From a bacterium (lineage in GTDB: Bacteria; UBP15; UBA6099; DSWB01), in assembly GCA_020061125.1 (NCBI GenBank), contig JAGUYV010000347.1, positions 1 through 6,742 on the forward strand: a DNA stretch of 6,742 nucleotides, read 5' to 3'. Below are positions 2,477 to 5,083 of this stretch, one piece after another. The notes under the pieces are model-generated. The model had not been told where the DNA came from. It saw only the letters and a program-made list of their open reading frames with translations, and did not search any database. The translations under genes and the position numbers were made by a program. Numbering within the stretch: position 1 is the stretch's first letter; the number at the start of each line of letters is the position of its first letter.

Positions 2477-2495
2477 GCCTTGCATGGGAGCACGA

Positions 2496-3014
2496 ATGCG
2501 CGCACGCACACACACGGGTTTTTCCCTGGTCGAATTCTTGCTTGTGGTTGTGCTGATTTCCATCCTCGCGGCCATCATCGTGCCGCGCTTCGAGTACGCG
2601 CACATATCCCAGCAGGAAGTGTATGCCGTGGCCCACGACATCGCCAAGGATTTGCGCAAAACGCGTCACTACGCTGTCGGCCAGGGCGAGCAAGGCTCGC
2701 AGGGCCAGACCGTTCACACCACCTCTCCCACCTACAAAACCTATGGCCTCACCATATTGTCCTCCACCTCGTGGGAGTTGTGGGAATACGACGGGGTCGT
2801 GCCCGTGAGCCGTTCTCTTTACACGGAATCCCTGCGCAACAGCGAGGTGCAGGTTTCAAGCGCAACACCAGATTTCGTGTTCGACAGGCTGGGAACGCCG
2901 GCCACGCCCGCCGCGGGCGGGTTCATCGAGGTCAAGGATTCCAAAGACCGGTACCAGTGGAATGTCTCGGTGATCAAAAACACGGGGCGCGTCGTTCTGG
3001 TCCGGGTCAAGTAG
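2496..3014 (+). CDS. Type II secretion/type IV pilus minor pseudopilin, GspH/FimT-like
   Basis: 172 residues. Basic leader MRARTHTG with a prepilin peptidase cleavage site after G8, then mature FSLVEFLLVVVLISILAA with Phe at +1 and Glu at +5, both needed for processing and assembly. One membrane helix spans about 9-30. The periplasmic part ends in a GspH/FimT-like strand pattern: FVFDRLGTPAT (127-137), GGFIEV (141-146) and VSVIKNTGRVVLVRV (157-171). The start at 2496 is preferred because GGGAG lies 5 bases before it; an in-frame ATG at 2484 would add four residues. In known systems GspH sits in the pseudopilus near the tip with I, J and K. It is first in a four-gene operon, 4 bases before the next gene. 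The family level is firm; T2SS versus T4P cannot be decided here. Confidence 0.85.
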   Translation: MRARTHTGFSLVEFLLVVVLISILAAIIVPRFEYAHISQQEVYAVAHDIAKDLRKTRHYAVGQGEQGSQGQTVHTTSPTYKTYGLTILSSTSWELWEYDGVVPVSRSLYTESLRNSEVQVSSATPDFVFDRLGTPATPAAGGFIEVKDSKDRYQWNVSVIKNTGRVVLVRVK

Positions 3015-3018
3015 AGCC

Positions 3019-3648
3019 ATGAAAAAATCGCCGGAAAGCAGCATGCCGCGCTCGCGCGGCGGGTTCACAATCATCGAGCTGGTTGTGGTTGTGTTCATGC
3101 TGCTGATCATCGTGCTCACGATCATGTACTCCGTGGAGCGGTCTCTGCGCACCAGCAACGAGTTGTACCGCATGACCACGGCCACCTTCCTTGCGCAGCG
3201 CAAGATGGAGGAGGTCATGACGCGCGCGAGTTGTTACACCACAGGCGGTCAATGCCCTCTCAACCTGGCCAAGGCGCCGCCCCTGCAGTTCTATTACGAC
3301 TTCAAGGAGAGTTTCTGCTCACATCCACCCGGCTACTGCGCCGCGTCTTACGGCGCCCTGGCCGCATGCAATGCGGATTGCGCGTGCGAATGGGTGGCCG
3401 GCGCGTGCACCAACTATGACCGCGCCTGTGAATTCCCGTCGCCGTTCGAGCAGTTCAAGTGCCGGGTCTATTACCTGGATGCGTCATCCGGGGCCGGCGG
3501 GGGCATTGTAATCCCCGCGGATTACATCATGGAAATCCAGGTTCGCGTGTGGTTCGACGAGAATTACAACAATATTTGCGACAGCAATGAGGCCGATGTG
3601 CTTTACCAGACCGCGCTCACTTACCGGTCACCGGCCTGGAACTTCTGA
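3019..3648 (+). CDS. Minor pseudopilin, GspI/PilV-like, with cysteine-rich insert
   Basis: 209 residues. Leader MKKSPESSMPRSRGG, cleavage after G15, then FTIIELVVVVFMLL with Phe +1 and Glu +5 (E20); membrane helix about 16-37. LAQRKMEEV (58-66) matches the helix of PilV/GspI proteins. Residues 70-150 contain ten cysteines (72, 79, 100, 107, 117, 121, 123, 130, 137, 148) and an eleventh is C187. The core ACNADCACEWVAGACT is far richer in cysteine than usual for the family and looks like a small disulfide-bonded module. FDENYNNICDSNEAD (179-193) resembles an Asp/Asn-rich calcium-binding loop. The family is usually about 120-180 residues, so the insert explains the extra length. The ATG at 3043 (leader MPRSRGG, with GGAAAG 4 bases upstream) is an equally fair start. 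The gene lies 4 bases after the GspH-like gene and 2 bases before the next, so translation is probably coupled. Confidence 0.82.
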   Translation: MKKSPESSMPRSRGGFTIIELVVVVFMLLIIVLTIMYSVERSLRTSNELYRMTTATFLAQRKMEEVMTRASCYTTGGQCPLNLAKAPPLQFYYDFKESFCSHPPGYCAASYGALAACNADCACEWVAGACTNYDRACEFPSPFEQFKCRVYYLDASSGAGGGIVIPADYIMEIQVRVWFDENYNNICDSNEADVLYQTALTYRSPAWNF

Positions 3649-3650
3649 TC

Positions 3651-4526
3651 ATGCACAAGCGCGCCCAGCGGGGCATGACATTGATCGAGATCCTCATCGT
3701 GATCGCCGTGATGGCGGTGGTGATCATCGCCGTGGCGCCTCTGATCCGCACCACATGGGTGTCGTGGATCACCGCGGACCGGCGCGACGAAATCCTCGAA
3801 ACCGGACGCGCGGGCTTGAGCAAGACCGTCCGGGAAATCCGCTCGGCCTATGATATTTACCAGGCCACGGACACCGCATATCTCGATTACTATCCCCACT
3901 GGTCCACGGGCAGCGCAGGACTCATCTACCGCTTCAACTATGATGCGCCCAATGTGGACTATGAATTCGGCGTGGCCACCCCGGCGTTTTCGCCGGACTC
4001 GCTGGCCGCGCCCGTTGACTCGTTCAGCTATGTGACCTACACACGAGGGCTGGACGAAGGAGCGGCCCGGGGGCGGCGCATCAACAGCATCAAGTTCAAT
4101 CTTGCCGTGTCCGACGAGCGCCGCCTGCTGCCGGAAACCGATCACCTCAACCCCATCCATTTCATGAGCCAGGCGTATCTGCGCCGCTCCCGCGAGGGCT
4201 GGCAGATTGCCGACAACCTCAACTTTTCAAATGAGGTGTACCGCTTCGACATAAGCAACGGGGATTCCCTGTGCTTCAAGGCGTACAGCGACCGCGTGGA
4301 CCCGTCGGCCATGATCAACCGGGATGTGACCATCACCTTCGGCGCGGGCAATACGCGCGTGCTGCAGATGGACTACTACGCCACGGACGATTATTTCGCC
4401 ACATGCTGCGTGGCGAACCAGGCGCCGTGCAATCTGGGCGGGGATCCCACCACGGACGTAGACATCCTGTTAAGCGACGGCACCGAATGGACCTGGATCA
4501 GGGACCAGGTAAGGGTGCAGAACTGA
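3651..4526 (+). CDS. Minor pseudopilin, GspJ/PilW-like
   Basis: 291 residues. Leader MHKRAQRG, cleavage after G8, then MTLIEILIVIAVMAVVIIAV with Met at +1 and Glu at +5 (E13); membrane helix about 9-31. The following helix ETGRAGLSKTVREIRSAYDI (50-69) fits the GspJ/PilW pattern, where a long N-terminal helix leads into two beta-rich halves (about 72-165 and 185-285). The C-terminal half holds four cysteines (208, 252, 253, 260), including an adjacent CC pair. At 291 residues it is longer than a typical GspJ (about 200) and nearer to PilW size. It is exported to the inner membrane and assembled into the pseudopilus or pilus tip with its neighbours. No clear ribosome binding site is seen before the ATG; the gap of 2 bases after the previous stop suggests translational coupling. 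Confidence 0.8.
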   Translation: MHKRAQRGMTLIEILIVIAVMAVVIIAVAPLIRTTWVSWITADRRDEILETGRAGLSKTVREIRSAYDIYQATDTAYLDYYPHWSTGSAGLIYRFNYDAPNVDYEFGVATPAFSPDSLAAPVDSFSYVTYTRGLDEGAARGRRINSIKFNLAVSDERRLLPETDHLNPIHFMSQAYLRRSREGWQIADNLNFSNEVYRFDISNGDSLCFKAYSDRVDPSAMINRDVTITFGAGNTRVLQMDYYATDDYFATCCVANQAPCNLGGDPTTDVDILLSDGTEWTWIRDQVRVQN

Positions 4527-4528
4527 TT

Positions 4529-5083
4529 ATGATCAAAAAACCGGACACACAGCGCGGCGCCATATTGCTCATGGTCGTCTTTCTTATCTTTCTCATTGCT
4601 ATTCTGATGATCTATTTGAGCCTGCTGCATCGCAAAGATCTGGAGATCGTGACCAACCAGATGGAGGATTTGCAGGCGCTTTACTGCGCGGATGCGGGCA
4701 TCCAGCGCGCGATATACGACATCCGCAAAACCGCGGCCCAGCCCAACTGGCCGGGCGGCGGCCGCTCCGTGAATCTCGATCCCTACGGCGGCGCGCAGGA
4801 TTGCGTCACCAACATCCCTGCCGGGCCGGATGCGCCTGGCTACGACTCCCTGGGGACCTATTCCGTCAGAATCACCGAAAACAAAGCCAACGATGACGCC
4901 AACAAGGAAGTGCCGGGCGCTGTGTACCGTTATGTCATGATCACCTCCACGGCCCGGCTGAACCCGCCGAGCAACCACCAGCGCAGCATCACCGCGCTCG
5001 TGCGCCGTTCCGCCATCTGGACCATGTTTCCGTTCCCCAACCTGACTTATTACACGGAAATACGCCAGTATCAGGAAAACTGA
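4529..5083 (+). CDS. PilX/GspK-like minor pilin-type membrane protein
   Basis: 184 residues. MIKKPDTQRG precedes AILLMVVFLIFLIAILMIYL, a membrane helix at about 11-32. G10 is a plausible prepilin peptidase site, but position +5 is Met instead of Glu; absence of Glu5 is also known for GspK and for PilX of Pseudomonas. The helix continues with LQALYCADAGIQRAIYDIRK (48-67), the typical PilX/GspK pattern in which an A-[ED]-A-G element follows. The rest (70-184) is a small beta-rich domain ending in TYYTEIRQYQEN. It is much shorter than GspK (about 300 residues) and lacks room for the GspK alpha domain. In known systems K caps the tip of the pseudopilus. It is last in the operon, 2 bases after the GspJ-like gene. 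The start ATG at 4529 fits the leader; an open frame continues upstream but it overlaps gspJ. Confidence 0.75.
   Translation: MIKKPDTQRGAILLMVVFLIFLIAILMIYLSLLHRKDLEIVTNQMEDLQALYCADAGIQRAIYDIRKTAAQPNWPGGGRSVNLDPYGGAQDCVTNIPAGPDAPGYDSLGTYSVRITENKANDDANKEVPGAVYRYVMITSTARLNPPSNHQRSITALVRRSAIWTMFPFPNLTYYTEIRQYQEN

Follow-up and report, generated by a model that had tools for sequence, protein, structure and literature searches.

The window, as we call the whole stretch of 6742 bases analysed here, holds an ORF (3019–3648, + strand) whose 209-residue product resembles a minor pseudopilin and contains 11 cysteines (residues 72, 79, 100, 107, 117, 121, 123, 130, 137, 148 and 187), raising the questions of where such a concentration of cysteines came from and what it may do on a type IV filament. 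The initial annotation had counted ten of them within 77 residues (72–148), which is exact, had noted a C-x3-C-x-C-x-W...C core, which was located at residues 117–130, and had read the segment as an insertion of a cysteine-rich module into a minor pilin resembling GspI/PilV. This reading was upheld by the GspI fold of the protein, by the H-I-J-K order of the pilin-like genes and by orthologues that lack the module but can be aligned up to it from either side.

The product of the ORF carries a class III (type IV pilin) cleavage and methylation segment, G15-F16-T-I-I-E20, followed by the hydrophobic N-terminal part of alpha1 (3061–3123, + strand), and so it has the G-F-x3-E signal peptide and hydrophobic alpha1 that mark type IV pilins. 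PF07963 matched with 22.4 bits, over the cut-off, in one search and with 19.1 bits, just under it, in another; residues G15, F16, T17 and E20 are invariant in the orthologue alignment. The best NCBIfam match was TIGR01707 (gspI), with 23.5 bits over residues 15–70 compared to a curated cut-off of 44.35, and because of this shortfall the protein is named here GspI-like and not a member of TIGR01707. An AlphaFold2 model of low confidence, built from seven sequences, was pilin-shaped, with alpha1 at residues 18–75 and three C-terminal strands (146–154, 170–179 and 194–201) forming the sheet of the pilin head (3454–3621, + strand). When this insert-bearing model was compared to solved structures with VIA-align, 2ret_A came first (Z 6.7, rmsd 2.5, 84/84 residues), and 5bw0_B gave Z 6.5 (rmsd 2.7, 89 residues); the model of an insert-free orthologue matched 5bw0_B (Z 7.9, rmsd 2.5, 88/89 residues), 2ret_A (Z 7.7) and 3ci0_I (Z 7.2). 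These top structures are all solved GspI proteins, namely EpsI (2ret), XcpV (5bw0) and the GspI of ETEC (3ci0), aligned over 81–89 residues that make up nearly the whole domains, although with Z values of 6–8 and low-confidence models the evidence for the fold is moderate. Foldseek searches of the PDB gave no significant match for the insert-bearing or the insert-free model, with GspI found within the top 50 rows for the latter, without significance. When GTDB genome contigs and IMG/VR were queried with the window protein, no relative was retrieved.

Four pilin-like genes follow one another in the window in the order H-I-J-K, the cysteine-rich one being the second, and the same order was found in those relatives whose loci were read. 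The first (2484–3014, + strand) encodes a GspH-like minor pseudopilin without cysteines, detected by PF07963 (21.7 bits) and, below the cut-off, by PF12019 (GspH, 14.9 bits), its best match being TIGR01708 (gspH), also below the cut-off. The third (3651–4526, + strand) encodes the minor pseudopilin at the GspJ/PilW position, with four cysteines and a PF07963 match, and relatives have the same position occupied. The fourth (4529–5083, + strand), at the GspK/PilX position, lacks Glu5 and matched NF037980 (GspK, 17.9 bits, the best match) and PilX_N (13 bits), both below their cut-offs. Altogether, computation supports that the minor pseudopilin encoded at 3019–3648 occupies the GspI position in a type IV filament, either T2SS-like or a type IV pilus.

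The surroundings of these genes differ among genomes. In the relatives whose loci were read, the H-I-J-K genes adjoin, upstream of GspH, a putative hydrolase of the metallo-beta-lactamase fold, as named from its sequence, which is missing from the window, where an apparent ArgZ-like ORF stands in that place instead (1326–2411, + strand); this ORF covers ArgZ-like proteins in their C-terminal portion only (PF21570, with PF21571 just under the cut-off). Downstream, an ORF that runs off the contig (5183–6742, + strand) belongs to the acyl-CoA:6-aminopenicillanic acid acyl-transferase family (PF03417, C45-type) and has a possible TPR tail.

The origin of the cysteines was approached through a sample of seven genomes of UBP15, a little-known and uncultured phylum, which includes the genome of the window (G000, a MAG of 513 contigs, 79% complete), the single member of its genus in the sample, and relatives from, among others, UBP15 UBA6099 and ADurb.Bin236. 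An orthologue of the pilin was present in 6/6 of the other UBP15 genomes. Five of the orthologues align to residues 12–95 and 130–207 and lack what lies between; that of G006, the sixth, is truncated by a contig end after residue 152. Two pairs of cysteines are invariant in 7/7 orthologues and form part of the scaffold: C72 and C79, at the end of alpha1 and the start of the alpha-beta loop (3232–3255, + strand), and C137 and C148, which flank an invariant FP-x-PF motif (3427–3462, + strand). Between C79 and C137 there are 57 residues in the window copy compared to 22–26 in the relatives, in such a way that the alpha-beta loop contains about 31–35 extra residues, located approximately at residues 97–130 (3307–3408, + strand), without counterpart in the six orthologues and including six cysteines (100, 107, 117, 121, 123 and 130). 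The remaining cysteine, C187 (3577–3579, + strand), is also confined to the window copy and, by parity, is probably unpaired. Since relatives without the module align on both of its sides, the segment is an insertion. Besides the orthologues of the six phylum members, the alignment search returned four weak matches to Sumerlaeota and other pilins, all of them without the module, and no direct or inverted repeats that could mark an insertion mechanism were found around it. Thus, when the conservation of the cysteines in relatives was checked, as had been suggested at the outset, four were found to be kept as scaffold, whereas the other seven, and with them the entire module, are missing there. 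Structure prediction was similarly divided, as the pilin head was modelled, while pLDDT fell below 50 over the insert region (residues 97–135).

The cysteine content had also been described as exceptional for a minor pilin. Against a background of 1.6% cysteine, taken from the 125 longest ORFs of 20 sampled contigs of the same genome (some false ORFs included), the binomial probability of at least ten cysteines in 77 residues is 5e-7 for a single window of that size, and that of at least 11 in 209 residues is 7e-4, figures that overstate the rarity because cysteines cluster in real proteins; the comparison with the orthologues, with four cysteines invariant and seven confined to the window copy, is the stronger evidence. 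Rare as it is against this background, the content has parallels among pilins of the phylum, since a separate pilin operon of the same genome encodes pilins whose mature forms hold 8 cysteines in about 145 residues, and pilins of 170–188 residues with 10 cysteines occur in relatives. Therefore, cysteine richness alone is less exceptional than first claimed. This second operon (L105, G000:C448, 1896–8581) contains two major-pilin-like ORFs, a prepilin peptidase, PilV/PilW-like genes and a PilX-like ORF of 1031 residues; with its relatives (L043, L052, L054–L056 and L064), whose pilins have 8–10 cysteines, it shows that cysteine-rich pilins are common in the UBP15 phylum.

Regarding the identity of the module, the likeness to PSI/plexin domains that had been suggested was not sustained, with no Pfam match and no match to a solved PSI-domain sequence in the PDB, in searches whose HMMER filters drop very weak matches. 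Sequence searches of Pfam and the PDB with the module gave nothing reliable in general. The top PDB match, an ING PHD finger, was rejected, as its E value of 0.06 is at chance level, the Cys4-His-Cys3 order is absent and the host protein is extracytoplasmic.

A better candidate emerged from a search of 386 genomes with the module alone, in which most of the weak matches, interrupted by stops or confined to short alternate reading frames, were put down to chance. This search led to an ORF of 3215 residues in genome G030 (locus L122, G030:C12) with C-x8-C-x5-C-x-W-x4-C repeats together with thrombospondin type 3 repeats. With a profile of the G030 repeats, the insert scored above 1000/1000 composition shuffles, and 4/1000 shuffles with fixed cysteines reached its score. 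When the 386 genomes were searched with a profile of 12 rows (11 from G030, plus the insert itself), matches with E ≤ 0.001 were found only in G030 and in 6/7 genomes of the UBP15 phylum. An independent, cysteine-anchored profile was also used, made of 171 phylum repeats with the window, its genome and G030 left out. Uncorrected, it gave the insert 18.3 bits, a score reached by 0/10000 composition shuffles, 4/10000 with fixed cysteines and 120/10000 with fixed cysteines and tryptophan; with the composition correction of HMMER, the score decreased to 7.2 bits, reached by 49, 134 and 637 of 10000 shuffles, and to 4.3 bits within the whole of P0001. A MAFFT-aligned phylum profile was weaker, with 6.8 bits, reached by 22/5000 shuffles.

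The repeat-like core of the insert (3337–3429, + strand) reads C107-x9-C117-x5-C123-x-W125-x4-C130-x6-C137, with C121 as an extra cysteine, compared to C-x8-C-x5-C-x-W-x(4,6)-C-x7-C in the UBP15 repeat. Its loop lengths (9/5/4/6) are inside the ranges of the phylum repeat, which together with the profile matches constitutes moderate evidence, and N, A, D and E at four core positions are the residues that the repeat prefers. The two thus share cysteine and tryptophan spacing, residue preferences, phylum and use as loop inserts, although the insert is a single diverged copy with extra cysteines at 100 and 121, the latter at a position where the repeat avoids cysteine. A common origin of insert and repeat is likely, judging from these sequence features, though not proven.

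The repeat occurs in the phylum in tandem arrays of as many as about 60 copies, within giant proteins that are probably located at the surface, and most copies have no Pfam name, as searched. In L157 (G002:C97), an ORF of 3723 residues of which 3608 were read, 59 copies of the motif were counted; L158 (G003:C42) has 42 copies and L162 (G001:C154) seven nearly identical ones. Two of the tandem-repeat giant ORFs of relatives also contain FecR and Ig-like domains and one contains TSP3. Loops of other beta domains also carry the repeat, there in one to a few copies. In an orthologous giant Ig-type protein of 2150–2170 residues, a given loop carries a single module in G002 and G004 but three of them in G001 (L160/L161 and L163, with 44% identity over 1843 columns), which means that modules are gained and lost in loops; a further protein family has a single copy in each of G002, G004 and G005. 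The genome of the window encodes at least one other module protein, a partial ORF at a contig end (L168, G000:C425, 4969–5775, − strand), in which 35 cysteines were counted in 269 residues, with repeated N-G-L-D-D-D-S-D-G-Q-M-D-C units.

These data bear on the possibility that the loop grew locally, unrelated to the phylum repeat, with its disulfides doing nothing other than stiffening the pilin head. As other pilins here are also cysteine-rich, stabilisation alone is the main rival to recognition; pilins of the genome and phylum with 8–10 cysteines and without the module agree with it, as does the modest profile match after composition correction. However, local growth leaves the shared Cys/Trp spacing and the N-A-D/E preferences to coincidence, along with an uncorrected score above that of 10000/10000 composition shuffles and the recurrence of the module within loops of other phylum proteins, so we regard it as unlikely.

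A search for periplasmic disulfide isomerase genes had been proposed as a check. VKOR is a disulfide-forming enzyme, and its gene was found in 7/7 genomes of the phylum; that of the window genome (L075, G000:C387, 1078–1854, 258 residues) is a single match. DsbA (PF01323) was not found in this genome, which is 79% complete, and is present in 5/7 genomes. One DsbD_TM match just above the cut-off was also detected in the window genome. As VKOR is encoded in all seven genomes and the protein is extracytoplasmic, disulfides are plausible and are favoured over a metal site. An insert that binds metal or is redox-active, such as a Cys4 site for zinc or copper, in place of a disulfide knob, could draw on the chance-level likeness to the ING PHD finger (E 0.06 at best) and on MopE-like copper-binding motifs that score below the cut-off in some repeat carriers, but the PHD match lacks the order of zinc ligands and there is only one histidine; such a site is very improbable. 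We give equally little credit to a functionless loop expansion, neutral or decaying: its presence in a single genome and the odd extra cysteines C187 and C121 would fit, but the new cysteines within the insert are even in number, the frame is intact and third-position GC is 0.74 in the insert compared to 0.80 elsewhere in the gene. Finally, a repeat fragment misjoined to the pilin gene during assembly is hardly credible, for even if the contig is short, the MAG fragmented and incomplete and repeat-rich genes assemble badly, both flanks are in frame with conserved pilin sequence, the operon continues and no repeated DNA surrounds the insert.

We therefore favour, as the fairly probable reading, that the alpha-beta loop of a GspI-like pilin gained one module of the phylum repeat, forming a disulfide knob displayed close to or at the tip of the filament, with a likely role in recognition or adhesion. 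According to this proposal, the loop would have received a single copy of the module in a lineage-specific gain, while the head would retain two ancestral disulfides among C72, C79, C137 and C148. By conservation and parity, the core cysteines 107, 117, 123 and 130 may form two further disulfides and C100–C121 a fifth, leaving C187 free. The VKOR pathway would oxidise the module into a compact folded knob, which would be presented at or near the tip, where the H, I, J and K subunits sit. A GspK-GspI-GspJ complex at the filament tip is established for the T2SS (PMC8179133), hence the expectation that the loop is displayed there. The knob might serve in recognition or adhesion, the most likely role, or in docking of an exported partner. 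Recognition or adhesion is our best guess, by analogy, since minor pilins onto which binding modules have been grafted are known, with 264 architectures counted, and the internal domain of GspK offers a precedent (PMC8179133). The cell thus probably moved a surface module onto a filament tip.

Compared to known systems, the protein shares with GspI, XcpV and EpsI (TIGR01707) the head fold, the position between H and J and the class III signal peptide, and differs from them in its score below the cut-off, its four conserved cysteines and the cysteine-rich loop of 31–35 residues. It has in common with the modular pilins PilB (vWA) and PilC (lectin) of Streptococcus sanguinis (PMC8179133) a non-pilin module on a minor pilin, probably at the tip, but theirs is C-terminal, whereas the one described here is small, disulfide-rich, placed in the alpha-beta loop and of putative role. 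The inserted alpha-domain of GspK (PMC8179133) likewise lies inside a pilin head at the tip, although in another subunit, at another place and with another module. The principle of modular pilins was already known, while this module and its placement in the alpha-beta loop are, as far as searched, new.

A likeness was also found outside the bacteria. By hmmscan, the array of G001:C154 matched Paramecium_SA (PF01508) with 55.9 bits, over the Pfam cut-off of 21.2, whereas the window insert had no match at E ≤ 10. A six-frame PF01508 search missed this same array and therefore under-reports. The surface antigens of ciliates have repetitive cysteine-rich motifs without experimental disulfide maps (PMC4136848), and they and the phylum repeats are both cysteine-rich and of surface type; cysteine-rich composition can inflate scores of this kind, and the likeness may reflect either descent or a shared cysteine pattern. 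Our tentative wider reading is that a mobile, disulfide-rich loop module of UBP15, with a pattern resembling that of ciliate surface antigens, might have spread as tandem arrays and single loop inserts across giant proteins of the surface and become, in one lineage, a recognition element of the filament tip.

The six insert-free orthologues represent the minor pilin before a module arrived in its alpha-beta loop, and with the module tied to a repeat expanded in the giant proteins of the phylum, the locus offers a case for how filament tips acquire new binding functions. It also draws attention to a little-described class of bacterial repeats with a possible parallel in the surface antigens of ciliates.
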